Notes under the pieces: model-generated
Told to the model about the DNA's origin: nothing
The model's input: only the letters and a program-made list of their open reading frames with translations
The model's database searches: none
IMG/VR virus record: IMGVR_UViG_3300037264_002295
Span: 1 to 27,363 of that record
DNA length: 27,363 nt
From: a virus
Direction: 5' to 3' (one strand)
Position numbers and translations under genes: made by a program
Shown here: piece by piece, positions 2,181 through 23,282 of the stretch
Layout: each line of letters starts with the position of its first letter
How positions within the stretch are numbered: position 1 is the stretch's first letter

Positions 2181-2678
2181 ATGAAGATATGGCCACTTTG
2201 CGTTCCCAGTGGGGACGATACCGAAATTCAGTACAACGACAGGTACATTTTCGGCGGAGACCCCCTATTCGTCTGGCAGGATACTGAGACGCGGTGCGGA
2301 GTAGGTCTTAACGACCCCAGAGACACCTTAGAGGTCTATAAACGCTTCGTTACCGACCCCGTACTTTTCAATACACTGATAGGCGACGATGCAGGCAACG
2401 CTCTGACGGTGGGCGTTCGCAATGCTTTAGCAGGCTATCATTCGGCCCTCTATACGGATTCTGATGATAATACTTCGTGGGGTTATCTGGCTTTGGGTGG
2501 GGATGGGGGTAGTGGAAACATCGCCAAGTGCACCGCCGTCGGCTCCTTAGCTCTTGGTAAGGTTACCGCAGGGGCGGATACCACAACGGCTGCCGGTTAT
2601 ATGGCCGGGGGCAGGGTAACGACACATTCGGGCGGAGTATTCTTAGGGCCTTACGCGGGCTGCCGGCAAACGACATGA
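2181..2678 (+). CDS. Short tail fiber-like protein, paralogue of the 621-aa fiber (165 aa)
   Basis: This is a compact version of the gene at 105. The N-terminus has the phage fiber signature DDTEIQYND, then FGGDPLFVW and NDPRDTLEV. The second half is built from glycine/alanine-spaced repeats (WGYLALGG, AVGSLALG, AAGYMAGG, LGPYAGC) like the NTAxGYxAL / GYxAG repeats that fold into beta-rich fiber shafts. The C-terminus GRVTTHSGGVFLGPYAGCRQTT-type ending is nearly shared with the 621-aa paralogue. The stop overlaps the next start as ATGA. No good Shine-Dalgarno precedes the ATG; a 7-codon frame ends on it. It is probably a virion fiber or a fiber-assembly adaptor. Confidence 0.7.
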   Translation: MKIWPLCVPSGDDTEIQYNDRYIFGGDPLFVWQDTETRCGVGLNDPRDTLEVYKRFVTDPVLFNTLIGDDAGNALTVGVRNALAGYHSALYTDSDDNTSWGYLALGGDGGSGNIAKCTAVGSLALGKVTAGADTTTAAGYMAGGRVTTHSGGVFLGPYAGCRQTT

Positions 2679-4051: not shown

Positions 4052-5668
4052 ATGGCTTTAGCAGCCAATACTGTTTGGGAAGTCCGAACGACCGGCGCAC
4101 AGACGAACGGCGGCGGCTTCCGATGGCTTAGTCTTGTCAATGCGACCTATAGATGGGTACTCTCCGGCAGCGGCACGACTGAGTATTACTGCCAGACGGC
4201 GGCGGGCGGCAATCCTTCTTTAACGGAGGCCAAATGTGCCACGACGGACGGCACGTTCAATCTCGATACGAACGGAACTTTAGGCAGTCTGACCGCCGGG
4301 CAGTGGGACTGGGGCGATAACGATGCTCTGGGCTATTCGACGGTCTATGTCAGACTGGATGATGGTGCAGACCCGGACACAAAAGCAACTGGCTTCGTCC
4401 AGATAGGCAACGGAGGCGGATACGACTACTCTCAACAGGCGCCGGCACAATTGAGTTTGACTGACTTGGCTGCAACGTCGGCATCTGGGTGGTTGACCTT
4501 GACCAGTGCAACGGGCGGATTCACGGCGTTGATGGTGGGTAATATTATCCGCATTACATCGGGGACAAACGACATCCCCGGCTGGTATGAAATCACAGTT
4601 TATACCGACGGTAATACAGTAACCGTTGACCGCGCCTGCGGCAGTGTGGGCAATATGTCGGCGGGAGTGGGGGCCGTCGGCGGAGCATTTCTAATCGGCG
4701 GGACGCTTGATGATGACTTTACCGAGGGTGTTGTTGCTGGAAATACCAACTATGTTAAGACCGGCTCTTACACTCTCGGAGAGAATATTTCTCAATCAAT
4801 AGGCGGTACGACTCAACTTCCGATTCGTTGGATAGGCTATACGACGAATCGCCGCGATGTCACCGTTGGAACGGATCGACCTTTGTTTACTTGTGCTGCA
4901 AATACGTCGGCTTTTGGTGCTCATGCAATTTTAGAAAATCTGCGTTTTACAGCTACCTCAGCCAACGGTGCTTATATACTTGCTTACTCCATTATGATTA
5001 ACTGCAAATCTCATAATTCTGGAGCGGCGGGAAGCGCCTTTACTGGTGCGGGAGTATATACTAGGTACATACATTGCGAGGGGATAAGCGATGGTGGCAT
5101 TGCTTTCGATCCGTCTGGTGACAGCGGCACTCTCATTAGTTGTTATGCTCACGATAGTGCTACGGGATATGTGGCGATTGGAGGCGCTGACATTGTGCGT
5201 ATTTATGGATGTGTTGCTGATACATGTACAACGGGAGTGGATTTAGGAGCTTCACTTGGAGACATAATTGCAAATTGCACCATTTATAATTGCACAACAG
5301 GCATATCGGGTTCGACGGCATATTCATCGACTTTTATCAATAATATCATCAAGGATTGCACGACGGGAGCTTCTTGGACAACGGCCACGCCGAATAATTT
5401 CTGGGATAACAACTGCTGGAACAATACGACGGACGTAAGTAATGTTACAAAAGGCCCGAATGATATTACAGCCGATCCGCTTCTGAATGACCCCGCCAAC
5501 GGAGATTTTACCTTGCAAGCGGGTTCTCCTTGCCTCGATGCGGGTCTGCAAATAGGAGCCAACGAAGGCGTGACCGGTGATTACAAGATCAATATCGGCA
5601 TCGACCAGGACGACAACGCGGCAGCAGCAGGCGGCGGCGGCGCGACGGTCTATATGGGAAACTTCTAA
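4052..5668 (+). CDS. Tailspike-like right-handed parallel beta-helix protein (538 aa)
   Basis: The middle of the protein (residues about 230-470) has the short repeating N/C/S/T-rich turns of a right-handed parallel beta-helix: CKSHNSGAAG, RYIHCEGISDGG, LISCYAHDSATG, RIYGCVADTCTTG, IIANCTIYNCTTG, FINNIIKDCTTG. It ends with the DPLLNDPANGDFTLQAGSPCLDAG signature often found at the end of pectate-lyase-like helices. Phage proteins of this shape bind or cleave surface polysaccharide; no catalytic residues can be assigned here. The first about 120 residues are a separate domain likely to attach to the virion. A Gly/Ala-rich stretch (AAAGGGGATV) sits near the C-terminus. Sampled lines in the helix are 38-50% GC, against about 62% at both gene ends. 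The stop shares one base with the next start (TAATG). Confidence 0.8.
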   Translation: MALAANTVWEVRTTGAQTNGGGFRWLSLVNATYRWVLSGSGTTEYYCQTAAGGNPSLTEAKCATTDGTFNLDTNGTLGSLTAGQWDWGDNDALGYSTVYVRLDDGADPDTKATGFVQIGNGGGYDYSQQAPAQLSLTDLAATSASGWLTLTSATGGFTALMVGNIIRITSGTNDIPGWYEITVYTDGNTVTVDRACGSVGNMSAGVGAVGGAFLIGGTLDDDFTEGVVAGNTNYVKTGSYTLGENISQSIGGTTQLPIRWIGYTTNRRDVTVGTDRPLFTCAANTSAFGAHAILENLRFTATSANGAYILAYSIMINCKSHNSGAAGSAFTGAGVYTRYIHCEGISDGGIAFDPSGDSGTLISCYAHDSATGYVAIGGADIVRIYGCVADTCTTGVDLGASLGDIIANCTIYNCTTGISGSTAYSSTFINNIIKDCTTGASWTTATPNNFWDNNCWNNTTDVSNVTKGPNDITADPLLNDPANGDFTLQAGSPCLDAGLQIGANEGVTGDYKINIGIDQDDNAAAAGGGGATVYMGNF

Positions 5669-6654: not shown

Positions 6655-7204
6655 TCTGACCTTACGTGACCTGGAGATTATGCACATGACGGAAATCGAG
6701 GGCAAATCTTACGATGAAGTGCAGGATAAACTCGATATTTCCCGTTGTACGATTGCCCGTACCAAGAAGAAACCGGAATACCGGGAATTGGTCTTGGCGG
6801 CCTTAGAGCAGCGCAATACTACCGCCGAGACCTTCGCTGAGCTTCTGATAAAGAAACTTAACGCCCAAAAAGTGATTTTTGTTCGTACTGACGAAGAAGA
6901 CAAGAAAGAAGAAATCACTGTCGATGACAATCCTACTCAGATGACCGCCTTGACGAAATTCGGTGACATCCTGGGCGTTGACGCTCCCAAAGAATTCGAC
7001 CTGAAACATTCGATGGCCGCCATGAGCGACGAAGAACTTCAGAACGCCATCCAAGAAAGTGCAGAGGCTCTTAATGGACGTGTCCAACATAGTATTGCCG
7101 GTTCATACCATGCGGAAGACCTTATCGCAAATACAATCGCTGGCGCAGAACCCCGAATGGTTGAAAGAGCCGGAGAACCGGCAGTTAGCTCAGCAAACAC
7201 TTGA
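6641..7204 (+). CDS. terS: Terminase small subunit, helix-turn-helix (187 aa)
   Basis: The small terminase subunit recognises the packaging site on phage DNA and recruits the large subunit. The N-terminal 45 residues show a helix-turn-helix: GKSYDEVQDKLDISRCTIAR, with a short first helix, turn and recognition helix, followed by KKKPEYRELV. The middle is charged and helical (FAELLIKKLNAQK, DEEDKKEEITVDD), fitting an oligomerisation region. The gene lies immediately before the terminase ATPase, which is the standard order. AAGGG lies five bases before the ATG. The 3' end overlaps the next gene by about 130 bases if that gene begins at 7074. The assignment rests on the motif and the context. Confidence 0.75.
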   Translation: MPTTNLTLRDLEIMHMTEIEGKSYDEVQDKLDISRCTIARTKKKPEYRELVLAALEQRNTTAETFAELLIKKLNAQKVIFVRTDEEDKKEEITVDDNPTQMTALTKFGDILGVDAPKEFDLKHSMAAMSDEELQNAIQESAEALNGRVQHSIAGSYHAEDLIANTIAGAEPRMVERAGEPAVSSANT

Positions 7205-9086
7205 ACGGTCCCGCGAGTTATTCTACCAGTACGAACCCTATTTCAACCGTCGAGACGGTAAACCCAGTTGGCAATGGGAGTTCCTTGAAGCGGCGAAAGA
7301 CTTCAAGGGCCGCTTGGCGTTAGGGGGAAATAGAATTGGCAAGTGTCTTCGATTAGACCAAAACGTGATAATGGCTGATGGGTCTTTTCGTAAACTTGTA
7401 GAGATTCAAGTTGGCGACAAAATCATGTCTTACGATACGACTACCGGAATAAGCCTGCCAACAACCGTGGTAAGAACCTACAGGTCTGGCACACAAAAGG
7501 TCTATCGTAGTTATTTCAGTGATGGTGCATACATCGACGCAACAATGAACCACACATTCCCCTGCATCATGGGAAGTGGTAGGTTTTATATAAGTCATTG
7601 CATCCCAAAGAAACGCAAGACACAGAAACGTCCTTTGTCCGATTTGATAGCCCGACTTGATAATTCCGTGTCCAAGCGAGTATCATTTCTGTCCCCTGTT
7701 TTGATTGATTATCAAACAGACGAGAATCTGCCAATTCATCCTTACGCATTAGGCGCTCTATTAGGAGATGGTTCTCTAAAATCTCATGTTCAAATTACAA
7801 CGGCTGATCCGATAGTATTTCATCGCGTCTTTGATGCGTTATCGCTTTATGTAAAAGGATATTCAGTCGATGAAAAGCCTGGAAATGCAGCCAAAACTTA
7901 TCGTTTCCAGCAAAAAACAGAAACCAGGGCAGATGGACAATATCCCAAGGGTTTTCTGAATGACAAATTAAGAGAATTGGGCTTGGCAAAGACAAATTGT
8001 TCTGACAAATTCATTCCACCAATATATCTGCGTGCTTCCGTTGAAAACCGCGAACAATTACTCGCCGGCCTGATTGATACCGATGGATTTCGACTCGGTT
8101 TTACAGTCAAATCAAAACGACTGGCTGAAGGTTTTGCTACGCTGGTTCGTAGTTTAGGCGGTAAGGCTACTATTCAAGCCGTTCGCAAGGAATGCAAAAA
8201 CAATGGCGTTGTTGGAGATTATTTTAACGTCTATTGGCGATTGAATCGTAGGTTGCCGCTGGAATTACCATACAAGCAGATTGAAACGACTCGTCGTCCA
8301 GTAGATTATTCGCGCCGCATATTGCGAAGTGTCAAATACATCGGTGATTATGAAACAGGATGCCTTGAAGTGGAACACCCTGACCACTGTTTCATTGTCG
8401 GAGATTACATTGCAGTAGGAAATTCTGACCAGGGCGCCTACGAATGTATCCTTGCCGTGACGGGCAGACATCCCTACAAACAATATCCCGCAAACGGCAA
8501 AGGTTGGATCGTAGGTTTGGACTTCAATATGTCCAGAGACGTTTGCCTGCCGAAATTCAATAAACTCATGCCCCGCAATTACACTATCAATTCGGATTAC
8601 AGTAAGGCCGACCGGATATGGTGGATTGAGGGTGAGGGCCGTCAGTGGGAAGTCCAGTTCAAGTCTTCCGATTCCGGGCGGGATAGATTCCAGGGCGCGG
8701 AGGTCGATTGGATATGGTTCGACGAGGAACCTTGCAAGACTGATATTTTCGCCGAGTGCATGATGCGGCTTGTAGATAAGGCCGGGACGTGGTGGATGAC
8801 CGCCACGCCTATCAACGGCACGGCATGGCTCAAACAACTCTCGGAGCGAGACGATATTTCCGTGACCTTTGGGGCTATGTGGGACAATCCCTACCTTCCC
8901 TTAGAGGAAGTGGAAAAAGCGGCGGCGGAACTCACGGAAGAAGAAAAACTCGTTCGCATCGAAGGACAATACATTGTCTTTGCAGGCAGTCCGGTATTCA
9001 ACATCAGACTCCTGACGGGAATGATAAATAACCTCAAAAACGACATCCCCATTTCAACGGGAATTATCGAGTCATGCGCAGCGTAA
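7074..9086 (+). CDS. terL: Terminase large subunit, ATPase part, interrupted by an intein
   Basis: This is the motor that pumps DNA into the prohead. Counting from the ATG at 7074, the Walker A sequence GGNRIGK is at residues 84-90. It is followed by a 360-aa intein, and the extein resumes with SDQGAYECILAVTGRHP, so the restored P-loop reads GGNRIGKS. Walker B VDWIWFDEE is at 544-552 and the coupling motif MTATP at 575-579. After splicing the ATPase part would be about 310 residues. The frame is open back to a GTG at 7059, but ATG 7074 is preferred because AGAGG lies just upstream. The frame stops at TAA 9084-9086 before the nuclease domain, which continues in the same frame from 9090. The order after terS and before the portal supports the call. 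Confidence 0.9.
   Translation: MDVSNIVLPVHTMRKTLSQIQSLAQNPEWLKEPENRQLAQQTLERSRELFYQYEPYFNRRDGKPSWQWEFLEAAKDFKGRLALGGNRIGKCLRLDQNVIMADGSFRKLVEIQVGDKIMSYDTTTGISLPTTVVRTYRSGTQKVYRSYFSDGAYIDATMNHTFPCIMGSGRFYISHCIPKKRKTQKRPLSDLIARLDNSVSKRVSFLSPVLIDYQTDENLPIHPYALGALLGDGSLKSHVQITTADPIVFHRVFDALSLYVKGYSVDEKPGNAAKTYRFQQKTETRADGQYPKGFLNDKLRELGLAKTNCSDKFIPPIYLRASVENREQLLAGLIDTDGFRLGFTVKSKRLAEGFATLVRSLGGKATIQAVRKECKNNGVVGDYFNVYWRLNRRLPLELPYKQIETTRRPVDYSRRILRSVKYIGDYETGCLEVEHPDHCFIVGDYIAVGNSDQGAYECILAVTGRHPYKQYPANGKGWIVGLDFNMSRDVCLPKFNKLMPRNYTINSDYSKADRIWWIEGEGRQWEVQFKSSDSGRDRFQGAEVDWIWFDEEPCKTDIFAECMMRLVDKAGTWWMTATPINGTAWLKQLSERDDISVTFGAMWDNPYLPLEEVEKAAAELTEEEKLVRIEGQYIVFAGSPVFNIRLLTGMINNLKNDIPISTGIIESCAA
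7344..8423 (+). mobile_element. LAGLIDADG intein inserted in the terminase P-loop (360 aa)
   Basis: The element starts with Cys1 (block A: CLRLDQNVIMADG) and ends with Asn360, followed by Ser+1 of the host protein. Block B is T67-M-N-H70 (ATMNHTFPC). The homing endonuclease has two LAGLIDADG motifs: ALGALLGDG at 135-143 and LAGLIDTDG at 240-248, both with the acidic residue in place, so the nuclease may be active. Block F is PDHCFIVGDY (346-355) and block G is IAVGN. The penultimate residue is Gly where most inteins have His. It lies between Lys and Ser of Walker A, so splicing is required for ATPase function. Sampled intein lines are 38-43% GC, against 48-60% in terminase lines on either side, consistent with recent arrival. 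Confidence 0.93.
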
Positions 9087-9089
9087 GTC

Positions 9090-9836
9090 ATGGCGGAAAA
9101 ACAACGATTCAGACTTGCCACGCCCGCAGAAAAAAACCGGGTGGACCTGGTATCCATTTACGCGCATCCCGAATCGGATACCCGATATACGATAGGACTG
9201 GATGCCGCGACCGGGTTTGGGAACGACTATACTTCTATCCAGGTCTTTTCCAATAGGATGCCGTTCGAGCAAGTCGCGTGGCTTCGCAATAAACGAATAA
9301 CGACAGTCAAGGGTTCGGAAGTTACCTATGCCTTAGCTAAGTATTACAACAACGCCTTTGTCGTTCCAGAGACCCGTTTTCCCGGCAATGCTTACGTCGA
9401 TAACCTCATCGAAGTCTATGGTTATGGTAATATCTTCAGACGAAAGCAAGTCCTGGATGAAGACCCTACGGTATCTACGAAATACGGTATTTGTACTACC
9501 GAGGCTGATAAACATCTGCTGATTAACCAGACCAAAAGTCTGATGGAAAATCCCGACGGTGCTCAGGTCATCTTTCACGATACCGTAACGCTGAATGAGT
9601 TCTGCAACTTCGTTTATATCGAGGACAAACGCAAAACAGGAGCCGGAGAGGGCTTCAACGACGATACCGTTATGGGGGCTATGTTGGCGCTTTATGGTTG
9701 TGCTTTAAGACCCCAGGAACAGCGAGAAATCGTCAAGCATTACAACAAGGACGACGAGAACGTTGCCCATCAGCAATACCTGATGAAGAACCACTGGGAC
9801 CGCATCCACGGGAAAGGAAAGGTAACGGCAATATGA
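9090..9836 (+). CDS. terL: Terminase large subunit, nuclease domain (248 aa)
   Basis: This is the RNase H-like nuclease half of a large terminase, which cuts concatemeric DNA at the start and end of packaging. Acidic residues expected for two-metal catalysis are visible: IGLDAATGFGNDYTSI with D38 and D46, E94 in VPETRFPGNAYVD, and the D191/D192 pair in FNDDTVMGAMLA. It lies in the same reading frame as the ATPase part, separated only by TAA-GTC, so the two would form one ordinary terminase if the stop were read through or were an error. The ATG has no clear Shine-Dalgarno; reinitiation after the nearby stop is a possible route. Its stop overlaps the next start as ATGA. Confidence 0.88.
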   Translation: MAEKQRFRLATPAEKNRVDLVSIYAHPESDTRYTIGLDAATGFGNDYTSIQVFSNRMPFEQVAWLRNKRITTVKGSEVTYALAKYYNNAFVVPETRFPGNAYVDNLIEVYGYGNIFRRKQVLDEDPTVSTKYGICTTEADKHLLINQTKSLMENPDGAQVIFHDTVTLNEFCNFVYIEDKRKTGAGEGFNDDTVMGAMLALYGCALRPQEQREIVKHYNKDDENVAHQQYLMKNHWDRIHGKGKVTAI

Positions 9837-10009: not shown

Positions 10010-10262
10010 GCGTATTAAACTCAGGTGTGTCCAATGCCACGCACGAATCTGCGATAGGCTCGAAACCCAGGATGGCTGGACGCTCCATTACAAAAAAGGA
10101 CGAACGAGTATCTATACCAGTTGGATGGTCCTGACGTGTTCTGAATGTAATACGACTCATCGAATCACTTGCGATAAAGGTGTTGTCGAATCCGTGAGAA
10201 ACCAATACTATGACCCAAGAATTCAAAGCGAAACCAGCGATACCCCAGACGGCGGCCAGTAA
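9981..10262 (+). CDS. Small zinc-ribbon protein (93 aa)
   Basis: Two CxxC pairs form a zinc ribbon: LRCVQCHARICDR near residue 15 and LTCSECNTTHRITC near residue 52, with a basic beta-hairpin between them (LHYKKGRTSIYTSW). The pattern is reminiscent of the Com/zinc-ribbon family known from Mu-like phages, where Com is an RNA-binding translational activator, but the resemblance is at motif level only. GAGGAAAAG lies before the ATG. The gene overlaps the preceding small gene by 29 bases and the portal gene by 53 bases in other frames. A role in DNA/RNA binding is plausible. Confidence 0.65.
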   Translation: MAPTKSSPCERIKLRCVQCHARICDRLETQDGWTLHYKKGRTSIYTSWMVLTCSECNTTHRITCDKGVVESVRNQYYDPRIQSETSDTPDGGQ

Positions 10263-12333
10263 TGATATTCCCAACGCCGATATGGCCGTCAGGGAAATCA
10301 TGCAGTCCAGAATCAGGACGTTCAACCCCTTCCGGCGTACGCGCATTATCGAATGGAACGCTAATATCGCCTACCTGTGCGGTCATCAATACATCGGCCT
10401 CTTAGATGGACATATCGTCGCCAGGCCAAGGGGTCCTTTTGCCACTATCGTCAATAAGATAGCCCCCGCCGTTAGAAATGACGTGGCTTTGGCGACGAAG
10501 ATGCCGCCTAAGTACGAAGTCGTACCCGAAACCACGGACGAGAACGACAGGCAAACCGCCATTGCCGGCGAAAAGATGGTCAGTTACCTGCGGAGAATCA
10601 ACAACTTCGATTCCCAGCGTGGACGCATCATCATCTGGTACGATATTGCCGCTATAGGCTGGCGTAAACAGTATTGGGACCCCTACTACAAACTCATAGG
10701 ACACAACCCGGAACCCGAACAGCAAGGCAACAATCCCGAACAACCACCCGGAACGCCTATCTATCAGGGCGAGGCCATCTCGGAACACACGCCGTCCAAC
10801 GAAGTCATTTACGACTGGCGGCAGAACACCGATAGACTCCCGTGGATAATCCACGCCCGACCGATGACGTTGGGCGATATTATCATTCGCTACGGTAAGG
10901 AAAAAGCCGCAAGTATTCCTGAATCTGAATTCATCGACCCCAATACGGGATACAACGAATTCGAGATAAGAATACTGAGCGAATTCGACCAAAGTGTTGC
11001 CCAGTCAACGGGCAGTAAGCCCAAACCCGACACGTCGGAAATGGGTAATAAAGATAAAGAGATAATGGTTTATGAACTCTGGCAGGTCAGAGATACCAAT
11101 TATCCCCTGGGCGTCTTTGCTATCATGGCCGGTTTGGATAATGGCGTCGTCTTACAGAACGTCCCCTATCCCATCGAACAATATCCTCACGGCGATATAC
11201 CTTTTACGTCCTACGATATGATGCTTCCCGATAAGGCCGTTGCGGGTACGGCAAGTCGAATCTCCCAGGCCCGGCCATTACAGGATGAACTCAACGATAT
11301 TAGAAGTCTCATCCGCGAGAACACGGCGACGTTAGGCAGCGGACTCTGGAAGGTCCCCCGCGAGGCTAAACTGAATATCTCGCGCATGGATAACGGACCT
11401 GGCTTGATAGTGGAATACGAAGGTGCTTACGAACCTCACAGGGAAGCCGGAGTGCCCGTAGCGGGCCAGTTGTTTGTCTATGCCGCAAGTATTGTCAATG
11501 ATATTAACGACATCTTCAGTTTCCCTGAAGTTTCTCAAGGCAAGCGCCCTGCTGGAGGACCAAAATCAGGAGTGGGCATAGCCTTTTTACAGGAAGCCTC
11601 AGCCACACAACATTCACCCATTATCGCCGAAATGGAACGCAAGGACGAACAGGCTATGGGCCAACTACTTTCCATTGCCTTTGCCAACTATAACGAACGG
11701 ACATTACAGATTATCGGCAAGGACAACCAGTGGACGATGTTCGAATTCAGTCCTGAATCGTTCTCAGGAAAAGTCAATGTCCATATCCGCTCAGGCTCGT
11801 CCTTGCCCGTGAGTAAGGCTATAGAACGTGACACGACGTTAGGTCTCTTGCAGTTAGGTCTTTTGGGGAATCCACAGGACCCCAGTGTTAAGAAACGTGT
11901 TTTGGAAACTATCGACATCGGCGGTTTGGATAAGATTCTCAAAGAGAACGCCAAAGATGTGAACTTCGCTAAGAAGGAATTTCAAGTCCCGGTTCAACAG
12001 TATCGACAGTTAGTCCAACAGGCCGGTAAGCCTTCGGAAGAAATCTTGAAACAGATTTATCTACCTTCTATCAACCTGTTCGATAATCACGAAATCCATA
12101 TCGTCGAACACAAGAACGACCTCTTGGATAAGTATTTCGAATACTTGGGCGCTGGTGATCCGGGAATGTTAGTTATCGCCAATGCCATGCTAACCCACTG
12201 GGCACAACATTCGCAAATCTTAGCCCAGCAGCAACTACAGAACGCCCTAATGACCGGCCAGATTAAACGGACAGATCTTGAGTCTTCAGAAGAACAACAG
12301 TCCGTCAAGAACACTTCACAGAAAGAGTCCTGA
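10210..12333 (+). CDS. Portal protein, P22-like (707 aa)
   Basis: The portal forms the dodecameric ring at one capsid vertex through which DNA is packaged and ejected. The length (707 aa) is close to the P22 portal. Family-like features include a helical N-terminus with WNANIAYLCGHQYI at about 50-62, the clamp-like segment APAVRNDVALATKMPPKYEVVP at about 85-106, the conserved tract DKAVAGTASRISQARPLQDE in the wing/stem region, and GPKSGVGIAFLQEASATQHSP further on. The C-terminal about 80 residues are Gln-rich and helical (HWAQHSQILAQQQLQNAL), as expected for a barrel or coiled tail. It sits directly after terminase and before scaffold and capsid genes, the normal order. The start at 10210 overlaps the zinc-ribbon gene and has only a weak GAGAAA upstream. 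Confidence 0.88.
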   Translation: MTQEFKAKPAIPQTAASNDIPNADMAVREIMQSRIRTFNPFRRTRIIEWNANIAYLCGHQYIGLLDGHIVARPRGPFATIVNKIAPAVRNDVALATKMPPKYEVVPETTDENDRQTAIAGEKMVSYLRRINNFDSQRGRIIIWYDIAAIGWRKQYWDPYYKLIGHNPEPEQQGNNPEQPPGTPIYQGEAISEHTPSNEVIYDWRQNTDRLPWIIHARPMTLGDIIIRYGKEKAASIPESEFIDPNTGYNEFEIRILSEFDQSVAQSTGSKPKPDTSEMGNKDKEIMVYELWQVRDTNYPLGVFAIMAGLDNGVVLQNVPYPIEQYPHGDIPFTSYDMMLPDKAVAGTASRISQARPLQDELNDIRSLIRENTATLGSGLWKVPREAKLNISRMDNGPGLIVEYEGAYEPHREAGVPVAGQLFVYAASIVNDINDIFSFPEVSQGKRPAGGPKSGVGIAFLQEASATQHSPIIAEMERKDEQAMGQLLSIAFANYNERTLQIIGKDNQWTMFEFSPESFSGKVNVHIRSGSSLPVSKAIERDTTLGLLQLGLLGNPQDPSVKKRVLETIDIGGLDKILKENAKDVNFAKKEFQVPVQQYRQLVQQAGKPSEEILKQIYLPSINLFDNHEIHIVEHKNDLLDKYFEYLGAGDPGMLVIANAMLTHWAQHSQILAQQQLQNALMTGQIKRTDLESSEEQQSVKNTSQKES

Positions 12334-13367: not shown

Positions 13368-14753
13368 ATGGCAACAAGTATCAGTAATTTAACAAACTCG
13401 ACCGCGTTGGACGGGTTGCTCAAGAAAGTCTATCTACCGACGATGCAGAGCGTCGCTTACGACGATACCCGCTTCTCGGAAATGATTCAGGCCCGTTCGG
13501 ACATCATTCCCGGCGGCGGCAATCACATCGTCCATTTCGCCCAGACACAAAGAGCGGAAGGCGTCGGGGCCATCTCCGAGGGCGGCAACTGGGTCAATAA
13601 CGTTCCCGTCAAGGGCAAGCAGATGACGGAAAACGTCAAGTATCTCAATAGTTACATTGCCCTGACCGGTCCCGTTATCAAGGCCGCAAACTCGAACGAG
13701 AAGTCGGCTATCGACGTTGTCACGGCTCACTTCAAGACCAATATCAGAGCCTTCAAGAACAACTTCGATAGAATGCTCATGGGCGACGGTTCTGGACGTA
13801 TGGCACTGGTTTCTTCTGTCGCCTCAATACCAGCCGTCACCGTAACCAAGACCGGTTTTGCTTGCGCACCATTCAACGCCGACCAGTTCATTCCCGTCGG
13901 CACAAGATGCAACGTTGCCACGTTCGGTACGGGAGTAACGGAAGCCATCGCCGCCAGTGGGATGAAAAACGCCAACGTTTCCGATGACTACGGCTTCATT
14001 ATTGCCGGTCATACCTCCAGAAGTACCAGTGCGGGGACGGCGGTTGTTGACGTTCACGACGAGGATGACGTAGCTTATGCCGGGGCCGGAACGGTTGATA
14101 TAGCCGCAGCCGACTACTTCGTTCGTGAGGGAGCTTACGGCACGGCCGGTACGGGAGCGAAGAACTGGACGGACTGCCTGGAAATCAACGGTCTGTCCAA
14201 TTTGGTTTCCGACGGTTCAAGTAACTCCGAGACTTCCGGCAATTTCTTAACCTGCTGGGGTCAGACGAGAACCAGTTTCAATTTCCTACAAAGCCTGATG
14301 ACGGACTTCGCCAGTGCCGAACTCGACGAAGATAATCTTCTCGATATGATGATGGACCTTCAGTACAGTCGGCAGGCTACGCCGAATCTTCTGATGACGA
14401 CCCCGAAAGCCGAGAAGAAATACTTCCTCAATAAGAAGGACGACCGACGGTTCACCAACGTCGGACCCATGAATTTCGTTGGCGGCTATACCCGCATGGG
14501 CATCCAGTTGGGTGAATGGCAACTCATCCTGACCTCTTTGGGAGCGGTGCCCAGTGGCAAGCTGTTCGTTATCAATACCTCGGACTTCGCCTTTGCTCAG
14601 AACTCTCCGATTGAATGGGTTTTGGGTGACGGCGGCAACGTCCTGGTCCAAAGTCACACCGGCGATAACAAATTCGCCAGTGCAGTCCAGTACGTCAACT
14701 TCGTCTGCTTTGACCCTTATCGTCAGGCAAAGGGATATAGCGTAGCCGAGTAA
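13368..14753 (+). CDS. Major capsid protein, HK97-fold type (461 aa)
   Basis: This is the main shell protein. The N-terminus TALDGLLKKVYLPTMQSV followed by TRFSEMIQ, then GGGNHIVHFAQTQRAEGVGAISEGG, matches the N-arm and early strands of HK97-fold coat proteins in which a helix leads into a beta strand pair. A long helix (VVTAHFKTNIRAFKNNFDRMLMGDG) fits the spine helix. An insertion rich in Gly/Thr/Asp (about residues 150-290) could be the surface domain, and the C-terminal half (TPNLLMTTPKAEKKYFLN, GRMGIQLG-like and PIEWVLGDGG segments) resembles the rest of the P- and A-domains. AGGAG lies 9 bases before the ATG. It follows the scaffold by 12 bases and is followed by a strong hairpin. Confidence 0.88.
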   Translation: MATSISNLTNSTALDGLLKKVYLPTMQSVAYDDTRFSEMIQARSDIIPGGGNHIVHFAQTQRAEGVGAISEGGNWVNNVPVKGKQMTENVKYLNSYIALTGPVIKAANSNEKSAIDVVTAHFKTNIRAFKNNFDRMLMGDGSGRMALVSSVASIPAVTVTKTGFACAPFNADQFIPVGTRCNVATFGTGVTEAIAASGMKNANVSDDYGFIIAGHTSRSTSAGTAVVDVHDEDDVAYAGAGTVDIAAADYFVREGAYGTAGTGAKNWTDCLEINGLSNLVSDGSSNSETSGNFLTCWGQTRTSFNFLQSLMTDFASAELDEDNLLDMMMDLQYSRQATPNLLMTTPKAEKKYFLNKKDDRRFTNVGPMNFVGGYTRMGIQLGEWQLILTSLGAVPSGKLFVINTSDFAFAQNSPIEWVLGDGGNVLVQSHTGDNKFASAVQYVNFVCFDPYRQAKGYSVAE

Positions 14754-14883: not shown

Positions 14884-17800
14884 ATGGCTGTTAGACAGAA
14901 AAACATTCACAAAGATTGGCGGTTGTCCGGCGTCTATGCGTCCGCTGCCGCATATCTCACGGGCCGTGGTAAAACCACTGCTACGGAAGGTGATATCTAT
15001 TACGATACCACATTGAACGCCTTCCGGGCCTACGATGGTTCAAGTTGGGCCTCGCTCGGCGGCGGTTCCGGTGGCGCCGGGACGTGGGATAACGTCATGT
15101 CCGCCGGGGCTAAAGTCACGGGAGCCTACGCCCCTGAAATTGAAATCAGCGGCTCTACCAATATCTTGCTCACCCTCGATGCCAACGGAACTACGAACGT
15201 CGATATTCTCGACATCAGTTCCGAAGCTGGAACGGGCGACCTGATTAACCTTACTCAGGCCGGTACGGGTAAGGATGTCAATGGAACTTCCGGGACGTGG
15301 TCCGTAACAAAGGCCGGTGTTGCTGCATTGGCGGGCATTACGCTGGCCGACGATAAGAACATCACGTTCGGTACGTCTTCGGACGCTGTTCTTCAATGGG
15401 ACCAGACAAGACTAATCCTGAGTGCCGCTGCCGATAGTACATTGCAACTTGGTGCTGCCGCGTTTTCCTACGATGTGAGTTTCATAGGCAATACCGCTAC
15501 GACGAACCTGATGAAGTGGGACCTCGACGGTGGAGCCAACTCCGTCGGTGCGTTGGTCTTCGATAACGCCGACCTCGATCTGGGCGATAATGACTTACTG
15601 AGATTCGGTGACGCCCAAGACGTTACAATCAAGTGGGACAACACAAACCTCTTAATTGAACCAGCAACTCAGGACACGGGCGAAATCAGGATTGGCGCTA
15701 CCAATGCTATTAACCTGGCGGTCTATGGTAATACCAATACCGATATTGCCCTGTTCGACTGTTCGGCCCCGGACATCATCCTCAATGGATGGGATTTGGG
15801 TCTGTACGACGACGACATCCTCGAATTCGGCGATAGCAAGGACATCTCAATTAACTGGGATGGAACAAACTTGCTCATCGAAGCTCTCACCCAGGATACG
15901 GGCCAGATTAAACTCGGAGCGACGAACGCCATAGACTTCAAAATCTTCGACAATGCCGCTACGGGTTCGTATCTGTTCGATTGTTCAACGTCAGCTTTGG
16001 TTATTGACGGTTGCGACATCTGGCTCAAGGACGACGATTACCTTATTCTGGGTGATTCGGCCACGGCAGGCGGAACAGCGGACGGTACGATTCGCTGGGA
16101 CGCTACGGGTGGAGTCGTTGAAGTCATCGGTAGTACCAGATTCGAGGGTACAACTAATACCTTCGATGGCAACGTGGCCGTGACGGGAACCTTTGCCCTT
16201 GTGGGTGCGTTCTCGCCCACGTCTCTGGCGTTGGCCGATACCAAGACCCTAACCTTCGGCGATAGCAGTGACCTGACGATCAGTGCCACGACGACTACAA
16301 CTACAATGGCTATCCTGGCGGGGTCGAGTCTGGAGATTACAGGTTCAGGTGGAAACACCTCAACGTGGGGCGCTACCGGAAACAACATTAACAGTGTCTT
16401 CTACGGTACCGTCAAGGTCGGTGTGGATGCCACGGGTTACGATGTGACACTCTACAGCGATACCACCGGGGATTATATCCTCTGGGATATGAACGCCGAT
16501 ACCAACGGTGTACTGATTGCCGAGGATTCCGGCATCTGCCTGAACGATGATACAACCCTGAGATTCGGAGATGGCTCAGCGGCGGGCGTAGGCGACTTTA
16601 CAATCTCCTGCGACCAGACGAACCTGAACATCGCCGAAGTTTCTGCTACCGGTAAGGTTATAAATATCGGCGTGGATAACAAGGGTACGGATGTCAAGTT
16701 CTTCGGCGAAACGGCAAGTTCCTATATGCTCTGGGACCAGAATGGCCTGACCAACGGTGCGCTGTTGATTAACGCGGCTTCGATTTGCCTGGCCGATGGT
16801 GATAAGATTTACTTCGGTTCACCCCTGCTTACGGGCGACTTCACCATCAGTGCAACTACCAACGTCCTGAGTATCGCACAAGTAGCTTCAGGAACTGGTG
16901 AAATCTACAACGGCACGGACGGTAAGGGTCTCGACGAGACGTGGTTCGGAGAAACTGCCGGGGACTACATGAAGTGGGACCAGGATGGTAATTCCAATTT
17001 GGGTGCTCTTGTTTTTGAGGATTCCGCAGTTCTGATGATGGACGATTCGCCTATTCTCATCGGCGATTCTTCCGATGTTAGTATCAAGTGGGACCGGACG
17101 CGACTGATTGTCGATGCGGCTGCCGCGGATTCGGTTATCCGAATTGGTAGTACCAACAACATGGACGTCACGATTGCAGGCGCAACGGCAACGAACATCA
17201 TCACTTTCGATACCGACGATGCGGCCTTGCTGTGCAGCTTCAACGGCTTTGACCTCAATTTGATGGACGACGACAAGTTGATTTTTGGCGATGAAACTAA
17301 TGACGTAGTCATTATGTGGGACCAAACAGAGCTTCAATTCGATGCTGGTACGGCTAATGGTACGATTGCTTTCGGCAAAAGTACCGCGACAGACGTTAGT
17401 TTCAATGGTACAAACGCCGGGCGGGATTGTGAGTGGAATTCGTCCTCGAACATGCTTCACTTCTTGGATAGCGCCTTTCTTGGTATTGGTGGAGCCGCCG
17501 ACGCAGCAGCAGACATCACCCTGACATGGGACACCACTCGTTTGCTGGTGGATGCAGCCGCTGCTGATTCAGTCATTCGCGTTGGTGCAACCAACAACCT
17601 CGACTTACTCATCTATGGCGATACGTCAACTGACGTAGTTACCTACGATACCAGTGCCGAACTGGTGACGCTCGATGGTTTCGACCTGCAACTACAGGAC
17701 GATGACAAACTCATCTTTGGTGATAGTACCAATGCCGATGTTGTTGTCCAGTGGGACCAGACTGAACTTCAGTTTGACGCAGGTACAGCGAATGGGACGA

Positions 17801-19140
17801 TAGCGTTCGGCAAGACTACGGCTACTGACGTGAGTTTCAACGGCACTTCGGCGGGTGTGGACTGCGAGTGGAATTCGTCATCGAACATGTTGCACTTCCT
17901 CGATAGCGCCTTTCTGGGAATAGGTGGTGCGGCTGACGCAGCGGCGGATATTACCCTGACATGGGATACTACGAGACTGCTCGTGGACGCTGCGGCGGCT
18001 GATTCCGTTATTCGAGTCGGGGCCACCAATAACCTCGACCTGATAATCTACGGTGGAACCAGTACGAACCTGATTACGTTCGATACGGATGATGCGGCCC
18101 TGTTGTGCCACTTCGATGGGTTCGATCTCCAGTTGAAAAATGATGACAAACTCATTTTCGGTGATAGTACCGCCAATACCAACGTTGTGGTTCAATGGGA
18201 CCAGACCGAATTACAATTCGATGCTGGGACCGCCAACGGCACGGTAGCCTTTGGTAAGACCACCGCAACGGACATCAGTTTCAATGGTACGAGTGCTGGC
18301 GTGGATATGGAGTGGAATTCATCTTCCAACATGCTCCACTTCATCACAAGTGCCGTACTGGGTATCGGTGGTGCTGCGGACGCGGTAGCAAGCGTAACAG
18401 CTTCGTGGGACCTCACGCGTCTTAACATCGACGCGGCTGCGGCCAATACTCCTATCCGCATAGGAAACACCAACAACCTCGACATCGTCATTCACGGCGA
18501 GACCAATACCAGTACCATCACGTTCGATACGGATGATACGGCAGCCGTGGTTACGTTCGACGCTTTCGACCTCAAGATGAACGATGACGATATTCTGAAG
18601 TTTGGTGACAGTTCGGATATTACAATCACCTGGGATCAGACGCAGTTGAACATCGACGGGGCCGCAGCGGATACAACCATCCGCGTAGGATACGCCAATA
18701 ATCAAGACCTGATTATCTACGGCGATTCGACGAACGATAAAGTCACGTTTGATACGTCGGCGGAGTCTATGGCCCTCGATGGTTTCGACCTGACGGTTCA
18801 AGATGATGACTTCCTGCGGTTTGGGGATTCGACCTCGGACTGCTACTTCACCTGGGACCAGTCAAGGCTCCAGATTGTACCGTCGAGTAACGTGTTCATC
18901 GGCGATAAGACCAACTACATCAGTATCAGTTCCGCAGGAGCACTGGCAACGGCAGGCACGGCTACGATTACGGCCACTCTTGTTGCGGCCAGTTTTGGTG
19001 GTCTTGTTCTGCCTAACCATGCAAGTTCAAGTCCGAGTGGTACGGCTGGAACCGCTGGGTCTATCTTCTTTGAAGTGGATGCCAGTAAACTCTGGGTCTG
19101 TTCAACTGGAACGGTTTGGGTTGGCCAGGCATTGTCGTAA
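14884..19140 (+). CDS. Giant repetitive virion fiber/decoration protein (1418 aa)
   Basis: The protein is built from about sixteen repeats of about 70-75 residues with the consensus: L-x-L-x-DDDxLxFGDSxDVxIxWDxTxLxI, then DxxIxIGxTNNxD, then IYGxTxTxxxTFD and a closing DGFD. The first about 150 residues and last about 60 are different: GDIYYDTTLNAFRAYDGSSW near the N-terminus and GSIFFEVDASKLWVCSTGTVWVG at the C-terminus are of the type common in phage tail and fiber proteins. The regular beta-strand repeats, high Asp/Thr/Ser/Asn content and lack of Lys-rich or hydrophobic segments suggest a long beta-solenoid-like filament on the virion. It follows the capsid gene, lies between two hairpins, and precedes sugar/methyl transfer genes. 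I do not know a named family. AAGGAG precedes the ATG. Confidence 0.8.
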   Translation: MAVRQKNIHKDWRLSGVYASAAAYLTGRGKTTATEGDIYYDTTLNAFRAYDGSSWASLGGGSGGAGTWDNVMSAGAKVTGAYAPEIEISGSTNILLTLDANGTTNVDILDISSEAGTGDLINLTQAGTGKDVNGTSGTWSVTKAGVAALAGITLADDKNITFGTSSDAVLQWDQTRLILSAAADSTLQLGAAAFSYDVSFIGNTATTNLMKWDLDGGANSVGALVFDNADLDLGDNDLLRFGDAQDVTIKWDNTNLLIEPATQDTGEIRIGATNAINLAVYGNTNTDIALFDCSAPDIILNGWDLGLYDDDILEFGDSKDISINWDGTNLLIEALTQDTGQIKLGATNAIDFKIFDNAATGSYLFDCSTSALVIDGCDIWLKDDDYLILGDSATAGGTADGTIRWDATGGVVEVIGSTRFEGTTNTFDGNVAVTGTFALVGAFSPTSLALADTKTLTFGDSSDLTISATTTTTTMAILAGSSLEITGSGGNTSTWGATGNNINSVFYGTVKVGVDATGYDVTLYSDTTGDYILWDMNADTNGVLIAEDSGICLNDDTTLRFGDGSAAGVGDFTISCDQTNLNIAEVSATGKVINIGVDNKGTDVKFFGETASSYMLWDQNGLTNGALLINAASICLADGDKIYFGSPLLTGDFTISATTNVLSIAQVASGTGEIYNGTDGKGLDETWFGETAGDYMKWDQDGNSNLGALVFEDSAVLMMDDSPILIGDSSDVSIKWDRTRLIVDAAAADSVIRIGSTNNMDVTIAGATATNIITFDTDDAALLCSFNGFDLNLMDDDKLIFGDETNDVVIMWDQTELQFDAGTANGTIAFGKSTATDVSFNGTNAGRDCEWNSSSNMLHFLDSAFLGIGGAADAAADITLTWDTTRLLVDAAAADSVIRVGATNNLDLLIYGDTSTDVVTYDTSAELVTLDGFDLQLQDDDKLIFGDSTNADVVVQWDQTELQFDAGTANGTIAFGKTTATDVSFNGTSAGVDCEWNSSSNMLHFLDSAFLGIGGAADAAADITLTWDTTRLLVDAAAADSVIRVGATNNLDLIIYGGTSTNLITFDTDDAALLCHFDGFDLQLKNDDKLIFGDSTANTNVVVQWDQTELQFDAGTANGTVAFGKTTATDISFNGTSAGVDMEWNSSSNMLHFITSAVLGIGGAADAVASVTASWDLTRLNIDAAAANTPIRIGNTNNLDIVIHGETNTSTITFDTDDTAAVVTFDAFDLKMNDDDILKFGDSSDITITWDQTQLNIDGAAADTTIRVGYANNQDLIIYGDSTNDKVTFDTSAESMALDGFDLTVQDDDFLRFGDSTSDCYFTWDQSRLQIVPSSNVFIGDKTNYISISSAGALATAGTATITATLVAASFGGLVLPNHASSSPSGTAGTAGSIFFEVDASKLWVCSTGTVWVGQALS
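17254..18570 (+). repeat. Three tandem about 147-aa super-repeats, conserved in protein but not in DNA
   Basis: Units at 17254-17685, 17686-18126 and 18127-18570 (144, 147 and 148 codons) each contain a DDKLIFGD...WDQTELQFDAGTANGT half and an LGIGGAADA...TRLxxDAAAA half. The products are nearly identical over long stretches, whereas the DNA differs at many third positions. In a 49-codon run starting with FLDSAFLGIGG (17461 in unit one, 17896 in unit two) all amino acids match, while 29 codons differ. Confidence 0.9.
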
Positions 19141-19245: not shown

Positions 19246-19830
19246 GTGTACCATGCTCAATTCAACGAGGATGCAATTCTCAATGGCCTCTATCATAAGA
19301 TAGGCACTACCAACAGGTTGTGCGTAGATATAGGGGCCAGTAACGGAATTCTCTATTCCAATACCCGTTTCTTCATGGAGAACGGATGGGAAGGTATCTT
19401 CGTCGAGCCTGACGAGAAGGCATTTGTAAAACTTGCCACATTATATCCCGCCGAATGGTGCTACAAAGAAAGTGTCACCAACGAGAATACGATTGACAGG
19501 ATTCTAACAAAAGTCCATTTCCCCTTGTCTTTCGATCTCTTGAGTCTGGACATTGACGGGCAGGAATACTATGTCTGGCAGGATATGGTCAAGTATCGAC
19601 CTCGCGTCGTCGTGGTCGAATGGAGTCCTTATGTCCAGTGCGATTTCATTCCCGAACGCAATAGCGACGGCAAGAATGGTTGCAACCAGGCTGGGATTCA
19701 CCCCATGTGCAAACTGGCACTGGAAAAAGGTTACTACGTCGTGGCGATAACGCCAACGAATCTGATTTGCGTTGACCAGAAACTTTGCCCCGAACGGAAA
19801 CAGTATTGGGAAGGGAATTTTCCACTGTAG
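19246..19830 (+). CDS. FkbM-like SAM-dependent methyltransferase (194 aa)
   Basis: The product transfers a methyl group from S-adenosylmethionine, typically to a sugar hydroxyl in this family. The SAM-binding loop is CVDIGASNGILYSNT near residue 26, followed by the acidic strand end GIFVEPDEKAF. A second motif LLSLDIDGQEYYVW near residue 99 and the RVVVVEWSP strand match the FkbM/related fold. The protein is about the family length, on the short side. The start is GTG (19246) with AAGGAAAAGGAAAG upstream. It lies between the terminator and a second methyl/glycosyl transferase gene, so the pair probably acts on the same glycan, either on the virion or on the host surface (inference). Confidence 0.78.
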   Translation: MYHAQFNEDAILNGLYHKIGTTNRLCVDIGASNGILYSNTRFFMENGWEGIFVEPDEKAFVKLATLYPAEWCYKESVTNENTIDRILTKVHFPLSFDLLSLDIDGQEYYVWQDMVKYRPRVVVVEWSPYVQCDFIPERNSDGKNGCNQAGIHPMCKLALEKGYYVVAITPTNLICVDQKLCPERKQYWEGNFPL

Positions 19831-19842
19831 GAAGGGAAGAAC

Positions 19843-21162
19843 ATGAGCCGACGACTTCATATAGGAGGTACGATAAAGGCCGACGGATGGGAAATCTTCA
19901 ACATTACCCCTGGCCCGGCAGTTGACCACGTAGGCGACGCCAAAGACATGTCTCGCTTTCGAGATGGACTATTCGTAGAGGTCTATGCCTCACACGTCCT
20001 TGAACATTTCGACGGCAAGGGACTTGAACTTGCCCTGAAGGAATGGCATAGGATTCTGGCTTCGGAAGGTAAGCTCTACGTAAGCGTTCCCGACCTTGAC
20101 GTTCTGAGCCGACTGTTCCTGCAGAAAGATAAGTTCCCTCCCCAGGAACGAATCAAACTTATCCAGATGATGTACGGCGGGCACGTTGATTCTCACGACG
20201 TACACAACGTCGGTTTCGATAAAGACATCTTGACGGCTTTGATTCGACAGGCCGGGTATAAGACTTGCACGTTCGTCCCTAAATTCGACATCGGTTTCAA
20301 GGATTGCAGTACGATAGAATTTGGTGGAGTCCCTATTAGTCTAAACCTCATCGCAACAAAGGATAGGGTAGAATCCAAGAACCCGGAAATCCCAAAGACC
20401 GATATTGCCAAAGACGTGTTCTATATCATGTCCACGGCGAGACTCGGATTCACAGATAACCTCTTTAGTCTGATAGGGTCAGTAAGTAAGTTAGGTATCG
20501 ACGGTCAAAGGTTCACCGGCGTGTTCTGGGAACAGGGCATGGAGAACCTGTTAGAGAACGCCATAGAGAAAGGTTTCAAGTATGCTTTGGCGATTGACTA
20601 CGATACGTTCTACACAGCGTATCACGTTATGGACATCTACAACCTAATGGAAAGCAACCCGAATGTAGGTTTGCTTATTCCCCTTCAACCCCGACGGGGA
20701 AATACTTATCCGATGTCGGGCAAGTTTGAAGACCCGAACGGCGACTTGGTATGTGTATCTAAGGGACCATTTACGGACGGCATCCAAGATGTTGACACGG
20801 GCCATTTCGGGCTTACGATGTTACGATTGTCGGAATTAAGCAAATTCGGAAAACCGTGGTTCGAGAGTAAGACCAACGAGAAAGGTGACTGGCATAGAGG
20901 CCACAAAGACGCCGACGTGAACTTCTGGATTAAATGCAAGAACGCTGGAATCGTCGCCAAACTTGCCGAAGTCTGGATAGGTCACATGGAACTGAAATGT
21001 TCGTTCTGCGGACCCGTAGAAGAAAATTTCAAAACCTACAGTTTAGACATTAACGAAGTCCTCGAAGGCGCGTTGCCTTCATGGACAATACCTAAGTCGT
21101 TTAAGGACGGTCAGTTAATCAACAATTATTTACCCACAGAGAAACAAGGAGTTTCACAATGA
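19843..21162 (+). CDS. Methyltransferase-glycosyltransferase fusion protein (439 aa)
   Basis: Two domains are visible. Residues about 1-175 look like a SAM-dependent methyltransferase of the Methyltransf_11 type lacking a long glycine loop: VDHVGDAKDMSRF, then VYASHVLEHF at 47-56, then WHRILASEGKLYVSVPDLD. Residues about 190-390 look like a GT-A glycosyltransferase: a DYD metal/nucleotide-sugar motif in ALAIDYDTFY (252-254), QPRRGNTYP, and DVDTGHFGL (316-324), which resembles the loop before the acceptor site. A CSFC pair (387-390) ends the domain. The two activities together suggest a modified sugar is added and capped. The strong AGGAAGGGAAG site and the order behind the FkbM-like gene indicate one operon. 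The stop overlaps the next start (ATGA). Confidence 0.72.
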   Translation: MSRRLHIGGTIKADGWEIFNITPGPAVDHVGDAKDMSRFRDGLFVEVYASHVLEHFDGKGLELALKEWHRILASEGKLYVSVPDLDVLSRLFLQKDKFPPQERIKLIQMMYGGHVDSHDVHNVGFDKDILTALIRQAGYKTCTFVPKFDIGFKDCSTIEFGGVPISLNLIATKDRVESKNPEIPKTDIAKDVFYIMSTARLGFTDNLFSLIGSVSKLGIDGQRFTGVFWEQGMENLLENAIEKGFKYALAIDYDTFYTAYHVMDIYNLMESNPNVGLLIPLQPRRGNTYPMSGKFEDPNGDLVCVSKGPFTDGIQDVDTGHFGLTMLRLSELSKFGKPWFESKTNEKGDWHRGHKDADVNFWIKCKNAGIVAKLAEVWIGHMELKCSFCGPVEENFKTYSLDINEVLEGALPSWTIPKSFKDGQLINNYLPTEKQGVSQ

Positions 21163-21874: not shown

Positions 21875-22579
21875 ATGGCAATTTGGGATAGGACTAAAAA
21901 CGAACTCCAGCGACATATCGAAACTACCGTGCGCACAATGCGCAAGGGCGTCGCTATCATCACCGCAGAGGAACGATTTACAATCTTCGGAGCAATCAAC
22001 GAGGCGATTATTGATATTGCCTTAGAACGCAGTATCGACGCGCCCAAAGCCATCACGTCCGATACCACGGCCACGACAACGGCATCGACGGCCTATGTGG
22101 ACTTGGCTTCTACGATAATTCAAGTTGTCGATGGTACGGTAAGAATCACCGCTGAGGATCAAATCCTTACGAGGATGAGTATTGCGGAATTCTACGCTTT
22201 CGATGTCGGCGAAGACATTACCGGTCTTCCATATCTTTACGCACTCGATACCAACGGATCGGGGGCGTTGAGGATGCTTTTGCGGCCCACCCCAGATGCC
22301 GTCTATACCATCGCCTACAAGGCGGAGTCCATGCCGGACGAAGATGAGGTCTCTCAGTTTCCCGGTTGGTATCACGGACTTTTACGAAGTTTGGCAACGG
22401 CGATTACCCTTGAGAATCTGGGCCTTAATAGTCTGGCCCAACGTTTTCAATATGAAGAAAAGCTCAAGAACATCAGAGATAAACAACGAGGTTTCTCCGG
22501 GCCGATACATATACCACTGAGAAGTACAACCGTAAGGCCAATGGCCCCGGAACTCAGAATACGAGGGGGTAACGTCTAA
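21875..22579 (+). CDS. Head-tail adaptor-like protein, first copy (234 aa)
   Basis: An N-terminal helix pair with alternating charge (WDRTKNELQRHIETTVRTMR, FTIFGAINEAIIDIALE) matches the adaptor/gp4-like fold that attaches below the portal. It is followed by a beta insertion (TAYVDLASTIIQVVDGTVRI, YLYALDTNGSGALRMLLRPT) and a C-terminal helix (QRFQYEEKLKNIRDKQRG). The next protein-coding gene (22680) shows the same layout. AGGTG lies before the ATG. A tRNA gene begins 7 bases after the stop codon. The call comes from the fold pattern and the position between head genes and the tail hub. Confidence 0.62.
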   Translation: MAIWDRTKNELQRHIETTVRTMRKGVAIITAEERFTIFGAINEAIIDIALERSIDAPKAITSDTTATTTASTAYVDLASTIIQVVDGTVRITAEDQILTRMSIAEFYAFDVGEDITGLPYLYALDTNGSGALRMLLRPTPDAVYTIAYKAESMPDEDEVSQFPGWYHGLLRSLATAITLENLGLNSLAQRFQYEEKLKNIRDKQRGFSGPIHIPLRSTTVRPMAPELRIRGGNV

Positions 22580-22585
22580 GTTTTT

Positions 22586-22659
22586 CAGAGTGTAGGGAAG
22601 TCTGGTAACCCACCTCGCTTGGGACGAGGTAATCGCTGGTTCGAATCCAGCCACTCTGA
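22586..22659 (+). tRNA. tRNA-Pro (anticodon UGG)
   Basis: All arms can be folded by eye. Acceptor CAGAGTG (22586-22592) pairs with CACTCTG (22652-22658), discriminator A at 22659. The D stem is GGG/CCC. Anticodon stem CCTCG/CGAGG (22613-22617, 22625-22629) holds loop CTTGGGA with anticodon TGG at 22620-22622. The T arm is GCTGG-TTCGAAT-CCAGC. C1:G72 and A73 are bacterial tRNA-Pro identity marks. CCA is not encoded. It would read CCN proline codons. Confidence 0.95.
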
Positions 22660-22679
22660 TTATGAATGGAGACTATTAA

Positions 22680-23282
22680 ATGGCTACCGGCACAACTATC
22701 ATCGCTAAAATCAGGGACGAACTTCAGGATACTACCGACCAGAGTTTCGCCGATGAGCTTCTTTTGAGATATATCAACAGGGGCGCAACGGAATTCTGCT
22801 CTACGACGGGTTGCCTACAAAAATCGGCCTACATCGCCACTGACGCTACGAATTTCAAATTCACCCTATCGTCCTATCTGACGAATCCCGTCGTCGTCTA
22901 TGACGTAGAGTACAACGGTACGCCTCTTAATAGAACCTTCAGGCATGAAGTGACGTACAAATTCGGGGCCTCGTCGGGTACGCCAATAGCATGGTACGAA
23001 TTCGGCGGCTCTCTCTTTATTGACATTATTGCCCCCGTCGCCACCGGAGCCTCGGCCTTGACGGCTTTCTATATCGGAACACCGACGGATTTATCCGCCG
23101 TCGACTCTACGTTCGACTTCCCGAATGAATGGGAATCGGCCATAGTCAGTTACGCCATCGCACGATGTTTTGCTACTCAACGTGACACAGTCCTGGCCGC
23201 CGAACACATGGCAAAATATGAAACCATGCGACAGACGGTTTACGCCATAAATAAGTACAAACTATTGGGTGACTCTCAATAA
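22680..23282 (+). CDS. Head-tail adaptor-like protein, second copy (200 aa)
   Basis: The N-terminus IIAKIRDELQDTTDQSFADELLLRYINRGATEF is a typical start for phage adaptor proteins in which a first helix, a D-rich turn and a LLRYINxG helix form the portal-binding bundle. The beta middle (YNGTPLNRTFRHEVTYKFG) and the C-terminal helices (EWESAIVSYAIARCFATQ, MAKYETMRQTVYAINK) complete the fold. It resembles the 234-aa protein before the tRNA in layout, so the two may form stacked rings below the portal. GGAG lies before the ATG. The stop shares one base with the next start (TAATG). Confidence 0.7.
   Translation: MATGTTIIAKIRDELQDTTDQSFADELLLRYINRGATEFCSTTGCLQKSAYIATDATNFKFTLSSYLTNPVVVYDVEYNGTPLNRTFRHEVTYKFGASSGTPIAWYEFGGSLFIDIIAPVATGASALTAFYIGTPTDLSAVDSTFDFPNEWESAIVSYAIARCFATQRDTVLAAEHMAKYETMRQTVYAINKYKLLGDSQ

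Follow-up and report, generated by a model that had tools for sequence, protein, structure and literature searches.

How can tandem copies within a single phage gene keep their protein sequence while their DNA becomes so different? The 1418-aa protein encoded in this stretch of viral DNA contains three consecutive super-repeats (U1, U2 and U3) of about 147 residues, and an earlier note had attributed their scrambled synonymous codons either to very strong purifying selection after an old duplication or to active avoidance of homologous DNA that would otherwise recombine the repeats away. Our comparisons indicate that the super-repeats are very probably old internal duplicates within a putative fibre, kept by purifying selection, with their silent sites saturated.

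Architecture of the repeat gene

The window, that is the whole stretch of 27,363 nt analysed from the virus record, is a phage structural block. It carries terminase, P22-like portal, an ORF in the scaffold position, major capsid, the 1418-aa protein, methyltransferase-type genes and SU10-type adaptors. The super-repeats are spaced 435 and 444 nt apart, and each comprises two modules of ~ 74 aa (Table 1). The whole gene holds ~ 16-17 such modules (17 HMM matches), placed between conserved N- and C-terminal parts of the protein.

Table 1. Features of the fibre-like gene and of the two single-copy genes used for comparison, with positions in the window
Feature	Position	Strand	Description
Portal protein (P22-like), single-copy yardstick	10210..12333	+	PF16510, phrog_156; pS 0.88-0.91 at 72% aa identity
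Major capsid protein, single-copy yardstick	13368..14753	+	phrog_14242, E = 2e-18; pS 0.73-0.87 at 65-74% aa identity to relatives
Fibre-like repeat protein	14884..19140	+	Single ORF, 1418 aa; immediately follows the major capsid gene
N-terminal region	14884..15339	+	Homologous to the L013 and L015 fibre genes (alignment), 49-56% identity
Upstream ~ 74-aa modules	15340..17250	+	Older and more divergent than the super-repeats; alignment, HMM matches
Super-repeat U1	17251..17682	+	144 aa, two modules
61-residue run, U1 copy	17425..17607	+	Protein identical to the U2 copy; 33 codons differ
Super-repeat U2	17683..18123	+	147 aa; 87% aa and 72-73% nt identity to U1
61-residue run, U2 partner	17860..18042	+	Offset 435 nt from the U1 copy
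Super-repeat U3	18124..18567	+	148 aa; 70-76% aa identity to U2
Further modules 3' of U3	18610..18882	+	Alignment, HMM matches
Conserved C-terminal part	18748..19137	+	Alignment; 64-66% identity to L013 and L015

Direct searches with the repeats against IMG/VR, GTDB genomes and named phages returned no relatives, and 50,697 phage records gave no sequence match. The full protein has no match in PHROGs, a PDB sequence search gave nothing relevant, and Pfam yielded a single sub-threshold match to a HYDIN-type Ig family (E = 1e-4, under the cut-off), which was set aside as uninformative. Relatives were located instead through the portal, the capsid and a DNA pattern of the module.

A monomeric AlphaFold2 model of 11 aligned units is all-beta (pLDDT 80, pTM 0.55). 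Among named entries in BFVD, it is most similar to tail fibres or S74-type proteins of Prochlorococcus and Synechococcus phages (E ~ 0.003-0.02). A structure search of the PDB with the model gave no match at E <= 0.001; trimeric spikes and a fibre of a Klebsiella phage are among the weak matches (E >= 0.25). A related DDDKLIFGDGNDL-type motif occurs in a fibre-like ORF of phage L011. The cyanophage fold matches, the position behind the capsid gene and this motif suggest that the 1418-aa protein is most likely a putative fibre with a repetitive shaft. It resembles the repetitive tail fibres of marine cyanophages and uncultured marine phages in predicted all-beta fold, gene position and motif, and differs from them in having neither a sequence match among the phage records nor a PHROG match.

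Neighbouring genes

Several neighbours of the fibre-like gene display features of their own. The large terminase (7059-9836) is split between two ORFs, the first covering the ATPase and the second the nuclease side, with a TAA followed within a few bases by an ATG. The second ORF (249 aa) is common to the relatives L007 and L008, so the split seems to be real and old. The ATPase ORF (7059-9086) carries an insertion of ~ 316 residues right after the Walker-A lysine (GNRIGK / SDQGAYE), which begins CLRLDQNVIMADGS and ends IAVGN before a Ser. It contains a LAGLIDADG-like LLAGLIDTDG motif with a Hom_end match, L007 has no such insertion, and the element looks like an intein with a homing endonuclease.

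Further upstream, a 457-aa protein (2675-4048) matches, below threshold, the N-terminal domain of the major tropism determinant (PF18454, E = 8e-4), and a 538-aa protein (4052-5668) has right-handed beta-helix matches (NosD, Beta_helix) and is possibly tailspike-like. Behind the fibre lie two methyltransferase-type genes (19246-21162), FkbM-like and Methyltransf_11. The second also adjoins the fibre in L013, L015, L023 and L049 and is perhaps linked to surface or fibre modification. A tRNA-Pro gene (22585-22660) separates two adjacent ORFs (21875-23282), each of which matches the SU10 adaptor family PF24175.

Divergence between the super-repeats

Amino acid identity, which varies with the placement of unit boundaries, is 87% for U1-U2, 70-76% for U2-U3 and 66-70% for U1-U3, and the corresponding DNA identities are 72-73%, 65-68% and 64-66%. 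The earlier description of units with nearly the same amino acids applies to U1 and U2, whereas U3, in which many amino acids have changed, is less well kept than it suggested. The short stretch EWNSSSNMLHF in U3, said to show the same codon scrambling, was overstated as an example, as only 4 of its 11 codons differ from U2.

By the NG86 method, all unit pairs reach pS values of 0.77-0.83, at or above the ceiling of 0.75, with dN at 0.10-0.28. Silent change is therefore saturated for every pair while dN remains low. A home-made pairwise GY94 fit for U1-U2 gave an omega of ~ 0.05 at dS = 2 and smaller values at higher dS. Low dS is strongly rejected (25 units of 2lnL at dS = 2); maximum-likelihood dS above ~ 6 is meaningless from saturation, so that the fit excludes low dS only and absolute dS is not estimable. 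A recent tandem duplication would have left DNA identity as well, as the note correctly remarked. A different origin of one unit, considered on grounds of composition, was rejected because GC3 is alike across the units (0.53-0.60).

Single-copy genes place these values in context. In the relatives found through portal and capsid (L007, L008 and L012-L015), the orthologs of these two genes show pS of ~ 0.73-0.91 at 65-81% amino acid identity, and their codon sharing lies at chance or somewhat higher. These orthologs are as saturated as the repeats, indicating that scrambled codons with a kept protein are the normal outcome of comparisons in this phage group.

Is homologous DNA avoided?

Active avoidance should leave less DNA in common between the copies than a random choice of synonymous codons would. 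As a null, each codon in aa 731-1256 was shuffled among the sites that encode its amino acid. Sharing of codons or k-mers below this expectation was sought in U1-U3 and was not found; values lie at the expectation or slightly above it. The super-repeats share 164 8-mers (123 +/- 18 after shuffling), with 8-, 10-, 12- and 14-mers all slightly in excess, and the longest DNA in common is 18 nt, compared with 17.0 +/- 3.3 in the shuffled sets. At identical residues, U1 and U2 use the same codon in 46 of 121 cases (41.8 +/- 5.0 by chance). Nothing therefore appears to drive the copies apart beyond drift.

Serine codons offer an independent test. The two serine boxes, TCN and AGY, are not interchangeable by one silent step. 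The box is switched at one of seven shared sites for U1-U2, one of seven for U2-U3 and none of five for U1-U3, where about half (about 3/7) would be expected at random. That the boxes are mostly kept indicates that the copies share DNA ancestry and have changed stepwise. Active codon avoidance, the second of the two readings proposed originally, is rejected by the permutation together with this conservation.

Concerted evolution, sought as silent-site similarity within the genome, was likewise not found, with silent sites saturated and codon sharing at chance. The units instead combine high silent divergence, low amino acid divergence and shared DNA ancestry, as in birth-and-death evolution with purifying selection.

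The 61-residue identical run

The longest stretch of identical amino acids between U1 and U2 spans 61 residues (aa 848-908), and the codons that differ within it carry 32 third-position and 5 first-position changes. The reported count of 29 differing codons in a run of 49 is exact, and is found in 5 of the 13 possible 49-codon sub-windows; a random draw from the gene's own codon usage predicts 31.1 differing codons in 49. The length of the run is less ordinary. With 18 differences randomly placed over 144 sites, a run of at least 61 has a probability of 0.0004, and the U1-U2 amino acid differences cluster outside it. No run in the ortholog comparisons reaches this length (at most 35, in distant pairs), and U3 has diverged in the matching stretch. 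A uniform constraint on the unit consequently fails to explain the run.

U1 and U2 share 25 of 58 codons inside the run and 12 of 44 beyond it. Both values are close to chance, and recent gene conversion across the run was rejected on this basis. As a clear excess of shared codons is missing, the run reads as stronger constraint rather than recent conversion. It is the remaining oddity of the system.

Repeats in related fibres

A homologous fibre gene follows the capsid gene in L012, L013 and L015, the L012 copy being cut off. The L013 and L015 proteins are smaller (919 and 1007 aa) and have homologous N- and C-terminal ends, with one U-type super-unit where U1-U3 lie. Their module arrays vary in number: the HMM matches 17 modules in the window, 11 in L015 and 10 in L013. 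By its homologous ends, its position and its variable array, the 1418-aa protein belongs with the fibre-like repeat proteins of this uncultured phage group, which has a P22-like portal. Further repeat-bearing ORFs were found in other viral contigs by the module DNA pattern. Within L015, internal repeats at 67-68% amino acid identity share 21 of 63 codons (25.4 expected), and within L041, repeats at 74% share 38 of 93 (33.7 expected). Internal repeats at 60-74% amino acid identity in the ORFs of other contigs generally share codons near chance, and are thus scrambled to the same degree as those of the window. Across 23 repeat-bearing ORFs almost no repeat pair exceeds chance, with L033 as the clear exception (47 of 84, z = 3.3), in a survey biased by short-read assembly, which loses DNA-identical repeats and may hide young copies. 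The differing module counts and the near-chance codon sharing indicate that repeat number is not fixed and that copies are as a rule old and diverged in their codons.

The near-identical contigs L012 and L013, which stem from different metagenomes, differ by 25 SNPs in 8.8 kb and give a view of short-term change. In portal and in capsid there is a single SNP, synonymous in both cases. The fibre has 14, of which 10 are nonsynonymous and 4 synonymous, and the sole U-type super-unit (about aa 442-564) contains one, which is synonymous. Taken as a whole, the fibre looks weakly constrained in the short term, and these changes may represent slightly deleterious polymorphism or adaptation. As the fibre is not slow over short times, we avoid the term "very strong" selection for the whole protein. 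The original proposal of an old duplication under purifying selection is supported by the saturation, the low dN, the conserved serine boxes and the similar state of the single-copy orthologs.

Origin and maintenance of the super-repeats

The observations can be best explained if an all-beta unit of two modules (about 2 x 74 aa) was duplicated long ago within a fibre-like protein. Selection at the protein level would since have kept the amino acids, most strongly in the 61-residue core of U1-U2, while silent sites would have drifted to saturation, one substitution at a time. A DNA-level mechanism would then be unneeded. We infer that the unit is selected for by the geometry of the shaft, and that this lineage alone has the triplication.

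The units could also have been assembled by recombination among diverged relatives that carried the same unit. Single copies of the super-unit are indeed present in L013, L015, L023 and L021, divergence between phages is itself saturated, and phage fibres are recombination hot spots. However, U1-U3 are mutually 69-87% identical and reach only 39-54% to the unit of any relative, and their similar GC3 also speaks against different sources. A tree groups U1-U3 weakly (42% of bootstraps), so that a single origin is not fixed; we nevertheless regard such a mosaic as unlikely.

A passive form of DNA-level selection, in which copies alike in DNA are deleted by recombination or slippage and codon-diverged copies persist, is also improbable. 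The near-absence of above-chance codon similarity in the surveyed ORFs, even though module number varies between relatives, is what such survivorship would leave behind. Short-read assembly biases this picture by dropping DNA-identical repeats, and codon and k-mer sharing among U1-U3 is not depressed relative to the shuffle. It is doubtful that arrays in this fibre family last only where the copies have lost DNA similarity. If it were true, silent divergence would be required for protein repeats to persist in a phage genome that recombines, and would not be a by-product of age.

An assembly chimera or sequencing artefact, conceivable in a metagenomic virus record, is highly implausible, as the longest exact direct repeat in the gene (18 nt) is too short to confuse usual assembly k-mers, the frame is intact over 1418 codons, and a gene of this kind occupies the equivalent position in relatives.

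With old duplication under purifying selection as the preferred reading, the nearest conceptual precedent is, by analogy, the birth-and-death view of polyubiquitin. Its repeats are protein-identical and show concerted evolution in many species (PMC10457151); birth-and-death with purifying selection was argued by Nei et al. 2000, according to the discussion in PMC10457151. In both systems the amino acids of tandem coding repeats are constrained, and silent differences have accumulated between copies. In contrast to polyubiquitin, the fibre repeats have saturated silent sites and a diverged U3, and they showed no sign of conversion. A survey by Persi, Wolf and Koonin 2016 found that within-protein repeats diverge faster than orthologs, under relaxed purifying selection and positive selection (PMC5120217). 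The fibre repeats share with these the status of internal duplicates with dN/dS < 1, but U1 and U2 differ little in amino acids compared with their silent divergence.

Before a DNA-level mechanism is invoked for scrambled codons with a kept protein, the pattern needs controls by synonymous shuffling, serine-box switching and single-copy orthologs, and here those controls make the fibre repeats ordinary. What the locus offers is a clean natural case of tandem protein repeats that have outlived their DNA similarity, in a fibre family unannotated in PHROGs.
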